Below are positions 25,467 to 37,583 of a DNA stretch of 64,000 nucleotides, piece after piece. The DNA comes from Flammeovirga pectinis (GTDB taxonomy: Bacteria > Bacteroidota > Bacteroidia > Cytophagales > Flammeovirgaceae), in contig NZ_CP034562.1 in the NCBI RefSeq assembly GCF_003970675.1, positions 3,818,001-3,882,000 on the forward strand, given 5' to 3'. The notes below the pieces were generated by a model, which saw nothing but the letters and a program-made list of their open reading frames with translations, was not told the origin of the DNA and ran no database searches. Position 1 is the stretch's first letter, and every line of letters starts with the position of its first letter. The translations under genes and the position numbers were made by a program.

Positions 25467-25474
25467 TACTTTTG
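25467..25474 (+). promoter_or_regulatory. Probable -7 element of the TesA-like esterase gene (TACTTTTG)
   Basis: TACTTTTG matches TAnnTTTG and ends 33 bases upstream of the chosen ATG at 25508. This supports that start over the longer frame beginning at TTG 25472. Confidence 0.5.
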
Positions 25475-25507
25475 ATAATAGTACATTCAACTATACCCTT
25501 GCAAGAA

Positions 25508-26200
25508 ATGAAGAGCATTCGCATTTTTTTTATTTTTCTAATATGTTCCCTTGATCTTTTATCAAGTTGTTCTACTACAAATAGTAATGACAATACTCAA
25601 CAAGAGTCCGAAAAAAAAGACGTTACTAAAAGCATAAAAAAAGACTCTAGAAAAGTTATTATATTTTATGGTAATAGTTTAACGGCTGGTTACGGATTAG
25701 AAAAAGAACAATCTTATCCTTCTATCATTCAAACAACTTATGATAGCTTAAACATACCTTACAAGTGTATAAATGCAGGTCTTAGTGGGGAAACAACAGC
25801 TGGTGGAAAAAATAGAATAGATTGGGTACTCAATCAAAATAAACCAGATATTTTTGTGCTTTCATTAGGTGGTAATGATGCTTTACGTGGTCTAGATCCA
25901 AAAAGCTCAAAGCAAAACTTAATTGATATTATTGATATAGTGAAAGCTAAAAATCCAAATTGTAAAATTTTACTTGCTGGTATAGTACCCCCACCAAATA
26001 TGGGCGAGAAATATTTCAACGAGTTTAAATTAATTTTCCCTCAAGTTTCTAAAGAGAAAAATACGTTTTTACTACCGTTCTTACTCAAAGGAGTTGCAGG
26101 TAATGAAACATTGAATCAAAAGGATGGAATACACCCTAATATTGAAGGGACAAAAATTGTTGCTTCTACAGTAATGACTGCACTGAAACCATTATTATAA
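25508..26200 (+). CDS. TesA/arylesterase-like SGNH hydrolase, lipoprotein
   Basis: A lipoprotein of 230 residues from ATG 25508. The signal peptide MKSIRIFFIFLICSLDLLSSC ends with a lipobox cysteine and is followed by a Ser/Thr/Asn-rich linker. SGNH blocks are intact: block I GNSLTAGYGL with Ser57, block II AGLSGET, block III SLGGNDALRG and block V DGIHPN. The arrangement is that of TesA-type lysophospholipase/arylesterases. It probably hydrolyses short ester or thioester substrates at the envelope. It converges with the repeat-rich gene at 26201, whose stop is immediately adjacent. Confidence 0.86.
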   Translation: MKSIRIFFIFLICSLDLLSSCSTTNSNDNTQQESEKKDVTKSIKKDSRKVIIFYGNSLTAGYGLEKEQSYPSIIQTTYDSLNIPYKCINAGLSGETTAGGKNRIDWVLNQNKPDIFVLSLGGNDALRGLDPKSSKQNLIDIIDIVKAKNPNCKILLAGIVPPPNMGEKYFNEFKLIFPQVSKEKNTFLLPFLLKGVAGNETLNQKDGIHPNIEGTKIVASTVMTALKPLL

Positions 26201-27157
26201 TTAATCTTCCTTCTTCTTAGGTTTGATCACCGGCCTAACAATTTTCTTCTTTGCTACTGGTGTTACCTCTTCAGAAGAAGATACTTTTGGCTTAATAACA
26301 GGACGTACTACTGTTTTCTTAACTTCGGAAGTTCCGGATGGGGATGTTTTAGGCTTGATAACTGGTCTAACAACTTTCTTCTTTGTTACTGGTGCTACCT
26401 CTTCAGAAGAAGATACTTTTGGCTTAATAACAGGGCGTACTACCGTTTTCTTAACTTCAGAAGTTCCGGATGAGGATGTTTTAGGCTTGATAACTGGTCT
26501 AACAACTTTCTTCTTTGCTACTGGTGCTACCTCTTCAGAAGAAGATACTTTTGGCTTAATAACAGGGCGTACTACCGTTTTCTTAACTTCAGAAGTTCCG
26601 GATGAGGATGTTTTAGGCTTGATAACTGGCCTAACAACTTTCTTCTTTGCTACTGGTGCTACCTCTTCAGAAGAAGATACTTTTGGCTTAATAACAGGGC
26701 GTGCTACTTTTTTCACAGGAGCCTCCTTGTTATTATCTTCAGTTTTTTTGATGACAGGTTTTGCTCCCATTTTAGGTTTAAATTTTGGACGAGCAGGCTT
26801 TTTATTTTCTACTTCATCAATATTCTCACCTTCTGTTTTTGGTTTGATTGTAGGTCTTACTACTTTCCTAACAACTTTTGAAGTTGAATCTAAATCACTT
26901 TCAGTTTCTTTTTTTGGAATAGCTTTTCTAACCACTCCAGATTTTGGTTTTGGTTTAGTGACTTCCACCTTAATAGGCTCAGCTATCCAATATCTTCTAC
27001 GAATTTGATTAATCAGAAAAAGTTTCTGTTGTGTAAAACTTTTAGGATGTACCTGCATAAACAACGATTCCCATTCTTCAAATCTTTCTGGTTCAGAAGA
27101 TTTAAAAAGGTTAGGGTCAATTCTCTTTTTCGTTAAATATGCTTCAAATTCGTTCAT
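26201..27157 (-). CDS. Lys/Pro-rich repeat protein of unknown function
   Basis: A 318-residue, strongly basic protein. The first 60 residues form a folded-looking segment (FEAYLTKKRIDPNLF, EEWESLFMQVHPKSF, QQKLFLINQIRRRYW). The rest is low complexity. From residue 151 on it consists of a 44-residue tandem repeat built from two half-units that both contain VVRPVIKPK, one followed by an SSSEEVAPVAKKK spacer and the other by an SSSGTSEVKKT spacer. Earlier, degenerate IKPK/FKPK units precede them. The composition resembles histone H1-like or AlgP-type tails, so nucleic acid binding is possible but unproven. It has its own promoter element. Confidence 0.7.
   Translation of the reverse strand: MNEFEAYLTKKRIDPNLFKSSEPERFEEWESLFMQVHPKSFTQQKLFLINQIRRRYWIAEPIKVEVTKPKPKSGVVRKAIPKKETESDLDSTSKVVRKVVRPTIKPKTEGENIDEVENKKPARPKFKPKMGAKPVIKKTEDNNKEAPVKKVARPVIKPKVSSSEEVAPVAKKKVVRPVIKPKTSSSGTSEVKKTVVRPVIKPKVSSSEEVAPVAKKKVVRPVIKPKTSSSGTSEVKKTVVRPVIKPKVSSSEEVAPVTKKKVVRPVIKPKTSPSGTSEVKKTVVRPVIKPKVSSSEEVTPVAKKKIVRPVIKPKKKED
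26204..26707 (-). repeat. 132-bp tandem coding repeat, three full copies plus a partial
   Basis: The same sequence recurs every 132 bases: the string GATACTTTTGGCTTAATAAC on the plus strand begins near 26279, 26411, 26543 and 26675. Copies differ by only a few bases. Each copy encodes 44 residues in frame, so copy number can change without frameshift. Confidence 0.9.
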
Positions 27158-29144: not shown

Positions 29145-29182
29145 CAAAAAAAACCACCTCTCTATATAAAAGAAAGGTGGTT
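29145..29182 (-). terminator. Intrinsic terminator after the SGNH-like lipoprotein
   Basis: AACCACCT pairs with AGGTGGTT around a partly paired loop; on the minus strand a run of T follows. It ends the transcript of the gene stopping at 29211. Confidence 0.75.
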
Positions 29183-29210: not shown

Positions 29211-31262
29211 TTAATTACCTGGATAATCTTTTACAGTAACTTTTGGTATAGTTGACGAATACAATGTATTTAAAGTCTCTATCATTTCATTCACTATAAT
29301 AGCATTCGCAGCAGATGTATAGCTATGTCCATCCATAGAATAGAAATTCCCACTTCGGTATTCATTTGTGTACGTTACTCCGTCTTGTTTATAACCTGTT
29401 ATTAATTTTGTTGAAATAGATTCTACATTAACAAAGGCCCAACGGTTACTATTTGCTGCGTTTGATAAAGCTAAATTATACGCTCTATTTGCTTCAGCAA
29501 CTTCTTGTTGTGTTGTATAAAAGTATACTTGATCAATAGTTGGGAACAAGTTCAATAAATTTGATGGATCAAAATCACCTGGTAATCCTCCATTACTAAC
29601 TATACTCTTGATAAACGTTCTTAAATCAACATAAACATTTGCGTAAGGCAACATAATTTTATCGCCTGTTTCTAACACTCTCATTCTTGTTGGAGATGAA
29701 GGATCAATAACAAATAATGGGTTATCTCCTGCTACAAATTCCGGGAAATACTTACGGTTACGAAGAACATCAATTACTGTAATACCAATTTCTCCTAATG
29801 AATTATCTATTGCAGCATCTAGGCTTTCTGGTGTCAACTCACCTTCTACATTTCTCAATACCACATTGAACAGTTGGTTAGCAATGATATTTACTAAAGC
29901 TTCTCTTTCTCCAAAATGAAGTAATAATGATGCTATAGATTCAGTAAACGTTTTTTCAATAACCATTACTTGTAATGGGTCTGTTGCCATTATACTATCC
30001 ATTGCTGTTGTTGAATCATTCTCAAATGAGTACACCCATTGTTTATCTACTTCAGCAAATATATAATCATTTCTATCTGATCTACCACTAGGTGAAATTG
30101 CAGCTACTCGTCCTGCTAATGTTCCTGTTTTAACACCAGAAACTTCGTAAGGAAGTGAATAATAAGGGCCATTAAAAACAATATTATAAGCAATGGAATC
30201 AACTATAGGCGTACAAGTTGAAATTGTTGTACAACTTGCATATGTAGGTTTTGAAGGGGGTAACACAGGTCTATTAGGGATATCATATCCACAACAAGCA
30301 TTTATACTAGAAACACCTAATTTACCGCCCCATCCATCAATCATTATTGGTTCTAAGAAATTAATAGCGATAGAATCTTGAGCTTTAGGACGGGTAACAA
30401 CTTGTATAGAATCAAAAACATGAGTAATTAAACCATATACTAAAGAGTCAATCCCTTCATTGATTGCATTAGCCGTTGATTCTTCTAAGTTGATAGAATT
30501 TCTAACATGATTGAAATAAGGCAAATCATTTATTACATCGATACCAATTACTGCTCCTCCTTGTTGTGTTGAGAATACTGAAGCAACTACATCTACTTGA
30601 TTTTCTAAAGTAGCACTTGATGGTAAGACTAAAGCATCATTTGTACCTTTATTTAAAGCATAATCAAGTAAATCGAATTTACCTACAGATATTGTAGTAA
30701 ATGTTGGTATAGCTTTTTTAGCTTCACCAAGCATAGATGCTGTATCTGATGATGAAAAATAACTAAAATATGGATTCTCAGCCGAATAATTCTGCTTTGT
30801 CAAATCTTCCATTTTAGCTTTAATTACTGATATATTAGTAAAGCCTGAACCATCTGCAGTCGTTCCGACTATTGATGGAACTGCTTCTGTTAAGATTCTT
30901 GCTTCTCCAACAACCCAACTCCCTTTTGAATAACGATTTACTTCTCCGTTTTCATCAGGAACACCAGTACCTTGAGTGGTAACACTTGGGTTTACTATTA
31001 CCGCACCTAAATTTACATCTTGTAATTTTTGAGAAAAGATGACAGCAACTGAATTATCTTGAGCCTCTTTATACCACACATTATCTTGTAGGCCTGCAGT
31101 TACTCCATCACCAATAGCTACATAATTTGAGTAATTAATAGGAATTCCTGATCTAGTTCTACCTGAATTGGCAAGTATCGTTTCTTCTCTATCAGAACAT
31201 GATATAAAGACAGGTAAAATTATTGATAATATAGTTAATGCTTTTAGTATATTTTTTTTCAT
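29211..31262 (-). CDS. SGNH-like lipoprotein lacking catalytic residues (pseudo-esterase)
   Basis: A 683-residue lipoprotein: hydrophobic signal, lipobox FISC, then SDREE, an acidic stretch like Bacteroidota surface-export signals. It is clearly a paralogue of the protein at 31419-33272, with the same start pattern (NYSNYVAIGDGVTAG against DYTTYVALGNSLTSG) and the same layout. The catalytic serine position is Gly53, the block III asparagine position is Phe196 (VGKFDLLDYA in place of LGANDVLGFA), and block V reads DGHSYT, with Ser647 where the catalytic His belongs. It contains several cysteines near residues 322-352 that the paralogue lacks. It may bind lipids or carry out some other non-hydrolytic role; this is inferred. 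Confidence 0.78.
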   Translation of the reverse strand: MKKNILKALTILSIILPVFISCSDREETILANSGRTRSGIPINYSNYVAIGDGVTAGLQDNVWYKEAQDNSVAVIFSQKLQDVNLGAVIVNPSVTTQGTGVPDENGEVNRYSKGSWVVGEARILTEAVPSIVGTTADGSGFTNISVIKAKMEDLTKQNYSAENPYFSYFSSSDTASMLGEAKKAIPTFTTISVGKFDLLDYALNKGTNDALVLPSSATLENQVDVVASVFSTQQGGAVIGIDVINDLPYFNHVRNSINLEESTANAINEGIDSLVYGLITHVFDSIQVVTRPKAQDSIAINFLEPIMIDGWGGKLGVSSINACCGYDIPNRPVLPPSKPTYASCTTISTCTPIVDSIAYNIVFNGPYYSLPYEVSGVKTGTLAGRVAAISPSGRSDRNDYIFAEVDKQWVYSFENDSTTAMDSIMATDPLQVMVIEKTFTESIASLLLHFGEREALVNIIANQLFNVVLRNVEGELTPESLDAAIDNSLGEIGITVIDVLRNRKYFPEFVAGDNPLFVIDPSSPTRMRVLETGDKIMLPYANVYVDLRTFIKSIVSNGGLPGDFDPSNLLNLFPTIDQVYFYTTQQEVAEANRAYNLALSNAANSNRWAFVNVESISTKLITGYKQDGVTYTNEYRSGNFYSMDGHSYTSAANAIIVNEMIETLNTLYSSTIPKVTVKDYPGN

Positions 31263-31323: not shown

Positions 31324-31359
31324 AAAAAAAACCTACCCCTTTTAAAATAAAGAGGTAGG
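31324..31359 (-). terminator. Intrinsic terminator between the two SGNH lipoprotein genes
   Basis: CCTACCCCTTT pairs with AAAGAGGTAGG with one mismatch and a 6-base loop; on the minus strand TTTTTTT follows. It lies 60 bases after the stop of the gene at 31419 and separates the fadL transcript from the pseudo-esterase. Confidence 0.75.
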
Positions 31360-31418
31360 CTATCTTCAAAAGTAAATATTTTTACTTTCTATTGTTTAAT
31401 TCTCAACAATATTTATGA

Positions 31419-33272
31419 TTAATTAGCAGCTGCTGGAGTTGGTACTACAGTTGTTTCAACTACTGGGAAATCATTTTGCTGGATCTGAGGTAATTTAGCA
31501 CCATATTTAGCATTAATTGCTTGAAGTGTATAGTTACCAATTACTGCATATCCTCTTTGCGTAAGGTGTGCTCCATCTAAAGAGAACAAATTACCTGATA
31601 AATATGTTGTAGTATAAGTTACTCCATCAATTATAATTCCTCCGTCATGAGCTTCAGACATAATTGCTTCTGTATCAACATAAGCTAACCCTCTATCAGA
31701 AGCTTCTTGTTTTAAATAAGCATTATATCCATCAATAGCACTTGCTACATCATCAACATCACCTTTCTCTAAAAATTCATATGTTCCTGTTGTATTATCA
31801 ATAACAGGTAAGTAATCTTTTAATTTAGTTATATCTAAATCTCCTCCTGTTAAGATTAATTCTCCTAATTCTCTTGCTTTGCTTAATGCTAATAAAGAAA
31901 CTAATGTTCCTTCTGCAGGTACACGCATCATTGTTGGAGAAGTAGCATCATATACAGGTAATTGATTTGATTCTAATGAGAAAACAGGATAATAACCTGC
32001 AGCTTTAAAACTAGCAGTTGTAGATGCTACAGTCCCTTCAATAACAGCAGGATCAATAGAACTATAAACAGTATTAACTTCAGTCTCTGTGCCTGTATAT
32101 GTAGCCCATGTTGCATTAATATTAAATGCAACTAATTGAGCTATTTGTGTTTGTCCTTCTTCAGATGCTACAACAGCATCTGCTGCTGCTTTTGCATCTG
32201 CATCACTTGCACCTGTACCTTTTGCTGTTAAAAACGCAGTCGAATGAACTACTGTAGTTGCTAATAAAGTAGCATCAGTAACATCGCCTCCTGCTGTTTG
32301 AATTACATTTACAGAATATGCAACAATATTTACATTTCCTATTGCTGCAATAGGAGTCAATACTTTTGTAATAGCCGCCTTAATATTATCTTCTACACCT
32401 TGTGCAATAACAGGGTCAAAAGCATTTGCTAAATATCCATTAACTAAGACAATAAAATCTTCCGTTAATTCCATTTTGTTAGCAGCTAGCATCTTTTCTA
32501 ACGTATTTGGAGTAGTATTAAATACTGCTGCCTCAGTAATGTCAGGAACATTAAGAATTACACCTTTGGCTCCATTATTCATCATTCCATCCAAAACACC
32601 TTCCATAGCTTGTTCATAGGCTGATTGAGGTGTAATTGCTGTTGCATTTAAGATATTATTTGGTCCTAAAGATCCTCCTTTAGTGGCAAAACCTAAAACA
32701 TCATTCGCCCCTAACCATACAGAAAAGAATGTTGGTACAGCAGCTATTGCATCATTTAAAACTGTTGATGTTGCCGCCGATGAGAAATAACCATAATTAG
32801 AATTAGCTTGACCATAACCTGGTACTGCCATATCTATTGCTCTAATACCTGGTACTGCCATATTATGATACATACCTGCAGTAATATTATCAGCAGCTCT
32901 AGATGTTCCAACATCTATTTTAGGAAGACCACCTGGTCCTGAATCTGTCAGAATTAACTGTTGCCCAAAATATGCTTTTCCTGAATTTGAGACTAACGGT
33001 TGTTTAAAGTCTTTTGCACCTAAACCTGCTTCTTGCAAACTACGTGCAATTAACTGAGGATATGAGTTAACTTGAGCACTAGCAACCCAAGCTCCATCCG
33101 TATAACCAGAAGTTAACGAATTACCTAAAGCTACATAAGTGGTATAATCTACGGGAGTTCCATCAGAAGAAGAGCCACCAGCAGTTACAAAATCATCTAC
33201 TTCTGTAGTACAAGCTGACAGTAATGCTATCGCACCTGCAGCTAATAATGATCTATATTTATTAAAAGTCAT
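31419..33272 (-). CDS. SGNH/GDSL-family lipoprotein esterase
   Basis: A 617-residue lipoprotein with lipobox LSAC followed by TTEVDD, a possible surface-export signal. The SGNH residues look intact: Ser52 in ALGNSLTSGY, Asn190 in WLGANDVLGF, and Asp566 with His569 in DGAHLTQRGY. Large insertions between blocks (about residues 260-430) are rich in Ala, Thr and Val. It starts 35 bp after the FadL-type porin gene stops, so the two probably form one transcript. This suggests an outer-surface lipase or esterase that releases fatty acids for FadL uptake; the pairing is seen, the function is inferred. Confidence 0.8.
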   Translation of the reverse strand: MTFNKYRSLLAAGAIALLSACTTEVDDFVTAGGSSSDGTPVDYTTYVALGNSLTSGYTDGAWVASAQVNSYPQLIARSLQEAGLGAKDFKQPLVSNSGKAYFGQQLILTDSGPGGLPKIDVGTSRAADNITAGMYHNMAVPGIRAIDMAVPGYGQANSNYGYFSSAATSTVLNDAIAAVPTFFSVWLGANDVLGFATKGGSLGPNNILNATAITPQSAYEQAMEGVLDGMMNNGAKGVILNVPDITEAAVFNTTPNTLEKMLAANKMELTEDFIVLVNGYLANAFDPVIAQGVEDNIKAAITKVLTPIAAIGNVNIVAYSVNVIQTAGGDVTDATLLATTVVHSTAFLTAKGTGASDADAKAAADAVVASEEGQTQIAQLVAFNINATWATYTGTETEVNTVYSSIDPAVIEGTVASTTASFKAAGYYPVFSLESNQLPVYDATSPTMMRVPAEGTLVSLLALSKARELGELILTGGDLDITKLKDYLPVIDNTTGTYEFLEKGDVDDVASAIDGYNAYLKQEASDRGLAYVDTEAIMSEAHDGGIIIDGVTYTTTYLSGNLFSLDGAHLTQRGYAVIGNYTLQAINAKYGAKLPQIQQNDFPVVETTVVPTPAAAN

Positions 33273-33306: not shown

Positions 33307-34569
33307 TTAGAAGTTATAGTTTAAAGAAAGGCTTGGAATATAAGCCGATGCTTTATATACACCATTCATTCCACCTGTGTCTACACCTTCAGGAATAATA
33401 TTTTCTCTTTGTTCTTTGTTTGTAAATAAGAATGCTGCATCTACACCAAACTTCTCACTAAACATGTAACTAACACCACAAGATAAACCTAATGCATTTG
33501 CATCTGGAGATTCTGGAGTTAAGTGACCATCCGGAACAGGAGTTGTATCGTAGTAAGCTCCAGCTCTAGCTGTAAACGCGTCTGTTACTTTATATTCTGC
33601 ACCGAAGTTAATGATGTATGAATTTTCCCATTTTCTATCATAAGAAATCGTTCCATATTCACCGTCAGGGAATTCAACTTTTAACTCTTCATAAACACTC
33701 CAAGTAACATAATTAAAATCTAGACCGAATGATAATTTATCTGTAGCATTATAACCAACACCTAAAGCAATTGTAGATGGTAAAGGTAATGTAGCATTAA
33801 ACTTGGCTTTCATTTGCTCGCCAGGAGTATAAGCATCTCCAAATAATTGACTACCAATAAAATCATTAGGTACATCAAAAGTAGCATCACCACCTTCAAC
33901 TTTCATATCAACACCAGAACGGTAGTTAATACCTGCAGAGAATTTCTCAGAAATTTGAGCAAATACACCTAAGTTAAAACCGAATTGTAATGTATTACCA
34001 TCCATCTCGAATCCAACATCACCACCTGGAGCTGCTACAGCTTTCTTAAACTGAACACCACCAGTTACAATATCTAAACCACCACCAACTGAAATCATAT
34101 CATTGATTCTGTAAGAAACTGTTGGTTGAATATATATAGATTGTAATGAAATTTCTTGTAAAGAATATTTACCTGTCCATTCATTATCATAAGTTACAGT
34201 AGAACCAAATGGTGTAAAAACACCTAAACCAAATGCCCAAGGCGATTCAGCTGAAGGTCTATAAACACCATATGCTTGAAATGGTGTTCCCATTGGAGAA
34301 TTTGATGCATATTTTGTAGATCCATCAATGCCTCTATAAGAAATATTTGACATTACAGGACTTACTCCTACCTGAATTGTACTACTTTCTAGAAATGATA
34401 ATGCACCCGGATTAAAAAATAAGCTTGATGCATCTGGACCGTAACCAACTCCAACGTTACCACGTCCGATTTGTTTTGTTCCCTGAAGCAGTACCTGGAA
34501 CCCATTAGCAAAAGCTGCGTTAGCTATAAACACAGTTGCTACTGTCAACAGTAAATTTCTGATTTTCAT
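33307..34569 (-). CDS. FadL/TodX-type outer-membrane hydrophobic-compound porin
   Basis: A 420-residue outer-membrane beta-barrel protein. A signal peptide (LLLTVATVFIANAAFA) is followed by the FadL N-terminal hatch: NGFQVLLQGTKQIGRGNVGVGYGPDASSLFFNPG, where the NPA-like motif reads NPG. Alternating beta strands follow through to a C-terminal aromatic end (SLNYNF). FadL proteins admit long-chain fatty acids or other hydrophobic compounds by lateral diffusion. It leads an apparent operon with a lipoprotein esterase. Upstream there are a palindrome at 34640-34665 and a FadR-like inverted repeat at 34817-34834. Confidence 0.88.
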   Translation of the reverse strand: MKIRNLLLTVATVFIANAAFANGFQVLLQGTKQIGRGNVGVGYGPDASSLFFNPGALSFLESSTIQVGVSPVMSNISYRGIDGSTKYASNSPMGTPFQAYGVYRPSAESPWAFGLGVFTPFGSTVTYDNEWTGKYSLQEISLQSIYIQPTVSYRINDMISVGGGLDIVTGGVQFKKAVAAPGGDVGFEMDGNTLQFGFNLGVFAQISEKFSAGINYRSGVDMKVEGGDATFDVPNDFIGSQLFGDAYTPGEQMKAKFNATLPLPSTIALGVGYNATDKLSFGLDFNYVTWSVYEELKVEFPDGEYGTISYDRKWENSYIINFGAEYKVTDAFTARAGAYYDTTPVPDGHLTPESPDANALGLSCGVSYMFSEKFGVDAAFLFTNKEQRENIIPEGVDTGGMNGVYKASAYIPSLSLNYNF

Positions 34570-34861: not shown

Positions 34862-36151
34862 CTATAATTGTTCTTTATAGGTTCCCAATAATGCTCTATA
34901 AAATAGCTCACCTTGGTATTGATATCCAATACGACTTAAATGTACTCGATCTCGTGATGTCATAGACATTGCACTCCATCTCTCAATAGATGATAACCCT
35001 CCCATTATATGGTAGAAATCCCAAACAGCTAAATGTTCTTGTTTTGCTAAAGTAAAAATTGCTTCTGTAGCTTTAGCATTATCTCTATTTATGTACTTAG
35101 ATTGTCTAAAATTATCTCCTGGTGTAGTTATAATAATTGGCAATTTAGGATTACCACTTCTTAATTCTTTAATCAGCTTACTATATTTTAATACAAAACG
35201 ATCTTTATTAAATGGAGAAAAGAAAGCATCATTTGTTCCTAAAGAAATTATAATTAAGTCTGGGTCTATTTCTTGAATATCATCTTCTAAATCTTTACAT
35301 CTCAAATAAGAGGTCACCTTTGCTCCATTAACCCCAGAAGAACTGTAAGTAACTCCTGCTAATTCTGAATCAAGCACTGCTAAACCTTTTAACGTAAATT
35401 GATTTTGGCTAAAGTGTTTTTTCTTGAGGCCAATTCTAAACTTAGAGATTGGTTGATCAAAAGTATAAGTAAGTTTACTTTTACCCCTTTTGGTTGCAAT
35501 AAGCTTTGCAGGGTTTAATGGTTGTATTACAGGTAGGTATTGAGTTGTATCATTTACAGGATAGTAAACTTCTACCGTATTCCCTTTATATGGATGTAAA
35601 GAGTCTATACCTACATTTATAGTTAAACTTGCAAAAGATTCTGTGGTTTGAGCAGTGATTGCTGCAATCCCCCAATCACTTTTATGATAACTAACAGAAG
35701 CCCTTTGTCCTTTCCATTCTCCAATTTTCGATACTTTAAAATTATACGGGTTGTTTGTTTTCGCTGCAGTATATGGAAAGAAAAAACCTCTACTAGCCAT
35801 TGGAAACCTTTGGTCTTCATAAAAACGTTCTCTTACCCAACCAGAAAAAAAATCTGCTTGAATATGTGAATCACCTAAATGGAGTATATGTACTTGACCT
35901 TTTTTCTTTTTCTCTAATTTTTCTAATTTCGAATAAAAAGAATTTAATACTGTTGAATCTCCAAACGTATTAATTTTATTCAAATCCATTCGAATAAAAT
36001 CATAAGTAACAAATGGCCTTTTTACATTAGAAATTGATGTTGGAGCAGAGTGTGCACACAATAATAAGATCGTTAGTATTCCTTTTACTAAGCGTAAACC
36101 TTTTTTCTGAAATGGTTGTATGTAATTATTTAGTTTCCAATTCTGACTCAT
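34862..36151 (-). CDS. SGNH-fold periplasmic hydrolase, second of an overlapping pair
   Basis: A 429-residue protein with an N-terminal hydrophobic segment (GILTILLLCAHSAPT). SGNH residues are in place: LHLGDSHIQAD with Ser95, SLGTNDAFF for block III and DRVHLSRIG for Asp-x-x-His near the C-terminus. A beta-rich insert between blocks I and III (about 120-230) resembles the accessory domain of Ape1-like O-acetylesterases or acetyltransferases. Such proteins act on acetyl groups of peptidoglycan or exopolysaccharide, often beside an MBOAT protein, but none is present here. It overlaps the upstream SGNH gene by 26 bp. Confidence 0.75.
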   Translation of the reverse strand: MSQNWKLNNYIQPFQKKGLRLVKGILTILLLCAHSAPTSISNVKRPFVTYDFIRMDLNKINTFGDSTVLNSFYSKLEKLEKKKKGQVHILHLGDSHIQADFFSGWVRERFYEDQRFPMASRGFFFPYTAAKTNNPYNFKVSKIGEWKGQRASVSYHKSDWGIAAITAQTTESFASLTINVGIDSLHPYKGNTVEVYYPVNDTTQYLPVIQPLNPAKLIATKRGKSKLTYTFDQPISKFRIGLKKKHFSQNQFTLKGLAVLDSELAGVTYSSSGVNGAKVTSYLRCKDLEDDIQEIDPDLIIISLGTNDAFFSPFNKDRFVLKYSKLIKELRSGNPKLPIIITTPGDNFRQSKYINRDNAKATEAIFTLAKQEHLAVWDFYHIMGGLSSIERWSAMSMTSRDRVHLSRIGYQYQGELFYRALLGTYKEQL

Positions 36152-37583
36152 CTCTATTCTTATAGCGTTGATACTCTCTCATTAGTTCATTATAGAGCAT
36201 ATCTCCTATATAATTTGCTCCTTTTCTTGTAAAGTGAGTATAATCTTTACCTGCCCAAGCTGGTTTTTTATCTGCCCATTTTACAATTGAATTCTTACCA
36301 CCCATTGCAAGATATAAATCCCAATAAGCTGCTCCCATTTTGTTTGCTGCTCTTCTTTCTGCAGCTCTAACTGCATCAATATTTGAGTATGATTCAATCT
36401 TTGAACCATTTTTCTTTGCCATATCAGAAACACCAATAATTAATACATTTAATTCTGGTGCCACTTCTTTAAAATACTTTAATTGTCTAACAATTAAACG
36501 CTCATAATAATTATAACTTTTTGCTTCCTGAGGAACTACATTTACACCAAATTGTAACACAAGTAATTTCACTTCCATATTTTCTAATAAAGAGGATAAA
36601 TGCTCCTTTCTTATTTTAGTGAAATCTGTTCCAGAACTACCTCTCATTGGTATGTTATCAACAGCAATACCATTATTACAATCAAAGCTCACTCCGTATA
36701 CTTCTGGAGAAACATCTGATTTAAATTTTAATTCTAACTCTCCTAGAGTGCCTGAGATTGGTAATGTTACAGCTTTTGCTTCAGAAGATGCTTCAATTTC
36801 TTTTGCTTCACCTTCAGCTCCATTCATTTTATAGTCTAACTTTACGTTAGCTACTGTGTTTCTCATATAAACCTTAAAAGCTTCAAAGTTTTTATGAGCT
36901 GTTTTTGAATAAGGAGCTTTCTCAAATAATAGTGTAGCTTCTGTTCCTTCGTAGGTGAAATATTTACCGAAGAAACCATAATCGTTGTGTTTTCCTCTAT
37001 ATTTTTTAGGGCCAAAACATAAAAATTGTTCCCAATTATCACTGTATGTTTGGTCTAAAGTAGTACGCATATTTTTTAATTCAATAATTGGTACTAATCC
37101 AACACCGCAACCTCCAAACTGTTCTTGTAAATTTTTCCTTAACCGCTCTGTCATACGATCTCCCTCTAATTGAGAGTCTCCATAATGTAAAACACGAACC
37201 AATTCGCCCTCATCTGAAATTGATGTTAACCCCTTAAAAAAGTTATCCAAAGCAGACATATCATTATTTGGATATTCAATAGCTACTGCTCCTTTTGGAG
37301 TTCTAACCGATAATGGTTTTTCTTCTATTGGTACCCAAGTTGACGCTTCGTCTACACTCGTCATATCAACAGTTAGTGAATCTTCATCAATATATTCCTC
37401 ATCTATAATTTCTATCTCCTCATTTTCTACAATTAAGCTTTCAGGAAGGACATCGCTTAATGTAGGTACACGAACTGTAGTTCCAAAAACATTTATTTCT
37501 TCTGGAGACATCATTAAAACTAGTCCCATCATTAAGCCGATATAAACGAGTATTTGTAATATCTTAAGAGGCGTAATTTTCAT
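36126..37583 (-). CDS. SGNH-fold periplasmic hydrolase, first of an overlapping pair
   Basis: A 485-residue protein anchored or exported by an N-terminal hydrophobic helix (ILQILVYIGLMMGLVLMM), followed by an acidic linker (ENEEIEIIDEEYIDEDSL). The SGNH blocks are HYGDSQLEGD with Ser137, LQFGVNVV for block III and KDYTHFTRKGA for Asp and His. A carbohydrate-binding-like beta insert lies at about 180-300. The gene is paralogous in layout to the one it overlaps, and the two products may work as a pair. A role in de-O-acetylation or O-acetylation of a cell-wall or secreted polymer is the best family-based guess. Confidence 0.75.
   Translation of the reverse strand: MKITPLKILQILVYIGLMMGLVLMMSPEEINVFGTTVRVPTLSDVLPESLIVENEEIEIIDEEYIDEDSLTVDMTSVDEASTWVPIEEKPLSVRTPKGAVAIEYPNNDMSALDNFFKGLTSISDEGELVRVLHYGDSQLEGDRMTERLRKNLQEQFGGCGVGLVPIIELKNMRTTLDQTYSDNWEQFLCFGPKKYRGKHNDYGFFGKYFTYEGTEATLLFEKAPYSKTAHKNFEAFKVYMRNTVANVKLDYKMNGAEGEAKEIEASSEAKAVTLPISGTLGELELKFKSDVSPEVYGVSFDCNNGIAVDNIPMRGSSGTDFTKIRKEHLSSLLENMEVKLLVLQFGVNVVPQEAKSYNYYERLIVRQLKYFKEVAPELNVLIIGVSDMAKKNGSKIESYSNIDAVRAAERRAANKMGAAYWDLYLAMGGKNSIVKWADKKPAWAGKDYTHFTRKGANYIGDMLYNELMREYQRYKNRDESELETK

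Follow-up and report, generated by a model that had tools for sequence, protein, structure and literature searches.

Two adjacent lipoprotein genes in Flammeovirga pectinis, one encoding an intact SGNH protein and the other a relative with altered catalytic positions, raise the question of whether the altered copy is still a functional protein and, if so, what role it might have beside its neighbour. We addressed this in a window of 64,000 bp, the whole stretch of DNA analysed (contig NZ_CP034562.1, positions 3,818,001 to 3,882,000; the window's genome is referred to as G000). The altered gene (29211..31262, minus strand), hereafter the pseudoenzyme gene, is an open reading frame of 683 codons with an ATG start and homology to its neighbour (31419..33272, minus strand), which encodes a lipoprotein of 617 aa with Ser52, Gly142, Asn190, Asp566, and His569 all present. 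The pseudoenzyme orthologue set comprises three proteins (two of them close), from the window's genome and from two other Flammeovirga species (G002 and G006).

Replacement of the catalytic residues

BLASTP aligned the pseudoenzyme with the 617-aa neighbour in two segments, residues 22–286 (25% identity, E = 5e-22) and residues 500–681 (32% identity, E = 4e-20), and three of the catalytic blocks could be compared without gaps (all codons given below are on the minus strand). In block I, YVALGNSLTSG of the neighbour corresponds to YVAIGDGVTAG, such that Gly53 (31104..31106) replaces the nucleophile Ser52 and the family sequence GNSLTAG reads GDGVTAG. In block III, WLGANDVLG corresponds to SVGKFDLLD, with Phe196 (30675..30677) in place of the oxyanion Asn190, and in block V, FSLDGAHLTQRG corresponds to YSMDGHSYTSAA, with Ser647 (29322..29324) in place of the catalytic His569. 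These three substitutions, which an initial annotation of the sequence had identified correctly, also hold in an alignment of 129 family members. A further loss, absent from that annotation's list, concerns the block II oxyanion Gly142 of the neighbour, which equals Lys148 in the pseudoenzyme (30819..30821). The accompanying claim that every catalytic residue had been lost was correct for Ser, Asn, and His, but not for the triad Asp, which is kept as Asp644 (29331..29333; Asp566 of the neighbour) and is the sole catalytic position in the family alignment that does not vary across the 129 members.

All three orthologues carry Gly53 and Ser647, and no orthologue with an intact triad was found. 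At the two oxyanion positions, Phe196 is also Phe in G006 and is Arg in G002, and Lys148 is replaced by Asn in G006 and by Gly in G002. Among the family rows found without motif bias, Ser was kept in 50 (two incomplete rows lack the Ser region) and His in 52, and none outside the three pseudoenzymes was without either. Rows from a scan of contigs also keep Ser and His, but that scan looked for GNSLT and is biased accordingly; motif-bearing patterns supplied over half of the family set. A few other aligned members that retain Ser and His are also missing the oxyanion Asn, and loss of this residue alone is therefore not diagnostic. The canonical SGNH catalytic machinery has very probably been lost from the pseudoenzyme.

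Lipoprotein signal, predicted fold, and cysteine-bearing insert

The initial annotation was also right that the signal peptide and lipobox had been retained. They occupy residues 1–22 (31197..31262, minus strand), the lipobox Cys22 is present, and homology to the neighbour extends over both halves of the protein. The sequence from the lipid Cys onward is CSDREET in the window protein, and CSDREEA and CATKDENE in the orthologues. Three of the first six residues after this Cys in the pseudoenzyme are acidic, which resembles a surface-export signal under the rule in PMC12578637, and 103 of 105 family members have at least two acidic residues after the lipid Cys. The pseudoenzyme is predicted to be lipidated and, from the acidic residues directly after the lipid Cys, surface exposed.

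No Pfam match to the pseudoenzyme was obtained at E values up to 1. In the AlphaFold2 model of the pseudoenzyme, made with 64 sequences (mean pLDDT 74.1, pTM 0.73), much of each half of the SGNH core scored above 90; the mean pLDDT for the intact twin was 89.6. Structural comparison of the pseudoenzyme model with VIA-align ranked GDSL esterases first (5xtu, Z 18.1, 3.1 Å over 231 residues), and the top Foldseek rows were all GDSL or SGNH proteins, at weak E-values (best 0.011). With GDSL esterases as its best structural matches, the pseudoenzyme is predicted to keep the three-layer SGNH core.

The gain of a cysteine-bearing insert, likewise noted at the outset, is real. This lineage-specific segment spans residues 291–444 (29931..30392, minus strand), is modelled with low confidence (pLDDT below 50), and carries Cys323, Cys324, Cys344, and Cys350; the single cysteine of the intact neighbour is the lipobox Cys21. 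The insert is the least conserved part of the pseudoenzyme (35%–38% identity). G002 keeps equivalents of the conserved pair Cys323 and Cys350 and is without both members of the extra pair, Cys324 and Cys344. The four residues may form two disulphides (Cys324/344 and Cys323/350), each lost or kept as a pair. One further Cys is present at position 319 in G006. When the ORFs of all fetched loci were compared with the insert, matches were confined to the three orthologues, and solved structures contained none.

Association with a FadL-family channel

A gene for a FadL/OmpP1 (Toluene_X) outer-membrane channel (33307..34569, minus strand) precedes the intact paralogue by 34 bp. It is the strongest Toluene_X match in the window's genome, and its best match among solved structures is a transporter-type FadL. 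FadL is separated from the pseudoenzyme gene, two genes downstream, by the intact paralogue and a terminator-like hairpin. Proximity to FadL extends to the wider SGNH family: of the 77 members at loci with flanks, 68 start 0–49 bp downstream of a FadL-family gene, six start after a gene classed with TonB-dependent receptors, and three are without a qualifying ORF upstream, possibly at contig ends (class labels are from small profiles built here, with Toluene_X and TonB-dependent receptor confirmed by Pfam for sampled members). The wider SGNH family is in this sense a Bacteroidota module. The occurrence of the pairing across Bacteroidota points to a lipid-uptake module; no description of such a module, and no relevant paper on pairs of FadL and GDSL lipoproteins, was found in the literature searched.

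Other genes were also noted elsewhere in the window and in other genomes. Two more tandem SGNH/GDSL-like genes (429 and 485 aa) are situated upstream of FadL (34862–37583), and another GDSL protein is encoded on the plus strand (25472–26200). The protein encoded on the minus strand at 26201–27157 contains many near-identical KKxVVRPVIKPK repeats, has no Pfam match, and differs in length between species. Two consecutive FadL-SGNH pairs occur in G010 (L036:6005-12976), where both SGNH genes are motif-intact.

Distribution and locus organisation

Of eight other Flammeovirga species searched, only two carry a close orthologue of the pseudoenzyme at the same position, G006 with 94% and G002 with 57% identity. 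None was found in other members of the family or in the genomes sampled from the order (n = 390) and phylum (n = 395), from which only intact-family members were recovered, at far lower scores. A first scan of genome contigs with the three pseudoenzymes as query also returned no matches. In all three genomes that bear the gene, the order is FadL, intact SGNH, pseudoenzyme, and ClC channel. The gene is missing from six of the nine Flammeovirga species, in which a terminator-like hairpin and then ClC come after the intact gene, and no remnants of the pseudoenzyme gene were detected by tblastn in the spacers of these six. Because the pseudoenzyme is absent from these species, the module works without it.

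Trees of the neighbouring genes pair G000 with G006, and group G002 with G007 and G008, both of which are without the gene; at least one loss or transfer is therefore needed. In a 23-row tree, the stem branch of the three pseudoenzymes is the longest (2.0 changes per column). Their grouping with the active copies of the genus received support of 75/71 only, and the alternative was not rejected (p-AU 0.247).

A strong intrinsic-terminator-like hairpin of 13 pairs (31330..31361, minus strand) separates the intact paralogue from the pseudoenzyme gene. Since this hairpin precedes the pseudoenzyme gene, co-expression with the FadL-esterase unit is not assured, and the gene may be transcribed separately or by read-through. 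A second terminator-like hairpin (29152..29182, minus strand) follows the pseudoenzyme gene, and is similar to that found directly after the intact paralogue in genomes without the gene. The palindrome AGTAAAAATATTTACT (31371..31386, minus strand) is identical in all three pseudoenzyme-bearing genomes, and did not appear in the matching spacer of the remaining genomes. The region just past the intact gene (31371–31410) contains two short palindromes in all, ATTGTT..AACAAT and AGTAAA..TTTACT, which are conserved in the three genomes even where other spacer sequence differs.

Two further observations concern the intact SGNH gene and its spacer in other genomes. In the G004 spacer that separates ClC from the intact SGNH gene (L038:4273-4579), a palindromic repeat of about 154 bp is present in two tandem copies. 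Matches to this repeat number at least 40 each in G004 and G001, with three in the window's genome, one in G006, and none in G002; the repeat is a MITE-like element, and its insertion accounts for the long spacer. In G005 (L043:4620-6377), the counterpart of the intact SGNH gene consists of two ORFs of 362 and 192 aa, reflecting either an assembly gap or a true break.

Selection on the pseudoenzyme and its former active site

Between G000 and G006, Ka/Ks of the pseudoenzyme was 0.072 (Ks 0.44, 94% protein identity), while values for the intact twin, FadL, and ClC were 0.33 (74% identity), 0.035, and 0.008, respectively (Nei-Gojobori). Ka/Ks of the pseudoenzyme to G002 was about 0.22, with Ks near saturation. 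Based on these two ratios, the gene is not decaying. G000 and G002 share 82% identity in the segments around the former active site, compared with 60% in the remainder of the core. When the active-site mask was shifted circularly, only the true placement of 482 reached 82%, although this is a guided test, given that the mask was picked from family motifs and the loop after beta-4.

Pocket changes fixed in all three pseudoenzymes are D52, G53, V54, W63, S145, I147, T189, S192, K205, D242, H252, R254, Y580, and S647. Several of these stand in place of residues that are near-invariant in the family (Gly199→Lys205, Pro243→Asp242, Thr253→His252, Pro255→Arg254, Trp186→Ser192, and Leu501→Tyr580). His252 (codon 30507..30509, minus strand) is new, being invariant in the three pseudoenzymes and found in no family member, and is located in the loop after beta-4, which by family topology adjoins the former active site. 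These rebuilt and fixed pocket residues suggest that the site has taken on another role and is not decaying. There is good support for the original proposal that evolution has kept a pseudoenzyme next to an intact paralogue. The low Ka/Ks and the conserved, rebuilt pocket fit a retained non-hydrolytic role, and the protein has almost certainly retained a function under selection.

Between G000 and G006, the sequence of the intact twin (31419–33272) is 87%–100% identical at residues 1–90 and mostly at least 90% identical at residues 421–617. At residues 91–210 (blocks II–III), the G000 protein is nearer to that of G002 (70%–87%) than to that of G006 (43%–70%), a mosaic that suggests allelic exchange around the pocket.

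Possible roles of the pseudoenzyme

We lean towards the interpretation that the pseudoenzyme is a duplicated, non-hydrolytic surface lipoprotein that serves as a binding or scaffold subunit of the FadL-SGNH lipid-uptake module. A duplicate of a FadL-linked SGNH surface esterase would have lost its nucleophile, base, and oxyanion hole, and would have been kept as a surface lipoprotein that does not hydrolyse. The intact SGNH lipoprotein would free hydrophobic products from esters at the surface, and the FadL barrel would import them. The rebuilt pocket and Cys-braced insert of the dead copy could bind a ligand (an ester, a lipid, or a glycolipid) or, alternatively, the copy could dock on FadL or on its active twin, and its presence would lead to higher capture or changed specificity. 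Both ligand binding and contact with FadL or the paralogue are putative. Relative to the FadL-linked SGNH/GDSL lipoproteins (SGNH superfamily, PF13472/PF00657; the family of 31419–33272), the pseudoenzyme has the same lipoprotein layout, locus, and predicted core, but differs in its replaced block I, II, III, and V residues, its long Cys insert, and the lack of a Pfam match. A close precedent is known. The Arabidopsis protein ERMO3/MVP1/GOLD36 is a GDSL pseudoenzyme in which Gly occupies the nucleophile position and which acts in a protein complex, and MVP1 into which the serine had been put still complemented the mutant, its function being independent of catalysis (PMC3498303). However, it is a plant vacuolar/ER protein, not a bacterial lipoprotein.

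Strong conservation of a pocket that was rebuilt, and not merely degraded, could also indicate that the protein remains catalytic, through a relocated or otherwise different active site composed of residues such as His252, Asp242, Asp52, Asp644, and Ser647; of these, His252 and Asp242 are new and do not vary among the three pseudoenzymes, and Asp644 has been kept. Yet no family of another kind matched the pseudoenzyme in Pfam or NCBIfam, and a shift of the base by one residue to His646 is excluded by Leu at that position in G002; we consider continued catalysis unlikely. The conserved pocket and the Cys-bearing insert would also suit a structural or assembly subunit that has no small-molecule ligand, and that docks on FadL or the esterase, or stabilises a surface complex, through a pocket turned protein interface. 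In the Bacteroidota BAM complex, a FadL-type barrel can serve as the anchor for surface lipoproteins (PMC12578637, PMC12611786), and the BamG-BamH pair, a FadL-type barrel partnered with a surface-exposed lipoprotein, resembles the arrangement predicted here. However, BamH, which docks on BamG, is described with a carbohydrate-binding-like fold and not that of SGNH proteins (PMC12611786), and it sits on an N-terminally extended FadL paralogue, whereas the FadL described here best matches the transporter type. A solely structural role seems doubtful to us. Identification of the pseudoenzyme as BamH of the BAM complex was set aside because of the different fold described for BamH (PMC12578637, PMC12611786); the model of the pseudoenzyme matches SGNH folds.

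Alternatively, the protein could act outside lipid uptake as a surface decoy or variable surface antigen facing phage or predators, in keeping with the mosaic exchange around blocks II–III of the active twin, as in exposed receptors. The pseudoenzyme is nevertheless more conserved than its twin between G000 and G006 (94% vs 74%), the opposite of what a diversifying decoy would show, making this highly unlikely. As for a decaying pseudogene or annotation artefact, such an origin would account for the lost catalytic residues and for a patchy distribution in which at least one loss is likely, but it is at odds with the intact frame of 683–690 codons in three species, the Ka/Ks of 0.07, and an old active site that is the best-conserved part. 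Decay was rejected on the grounds of Ka/Ks and conservation, and this explanation is extremely improbable.

Implications

The literature searched says little about SGNH pseudoenzymes from bacteria. The occurrence of the twin beside an intact copy, together with its natural presence and absence across a small genus, makes the role of a dead esterase testable in Flammeovirga. Extending the interpretation of a non-hydrolytic binding or scaffold subunit, we tentatively envisage a three-part Bacteroidota surface unit, in which a FadL channel and a cutting SGNH lipoprotein might be joined by a dedicated dead twin that captures or hands over substrate with its rebuilt pocket. If true, this unit would be a lipid counterpart of the binding-protein logic of Sus systems, derived from one duplicated enzyme.
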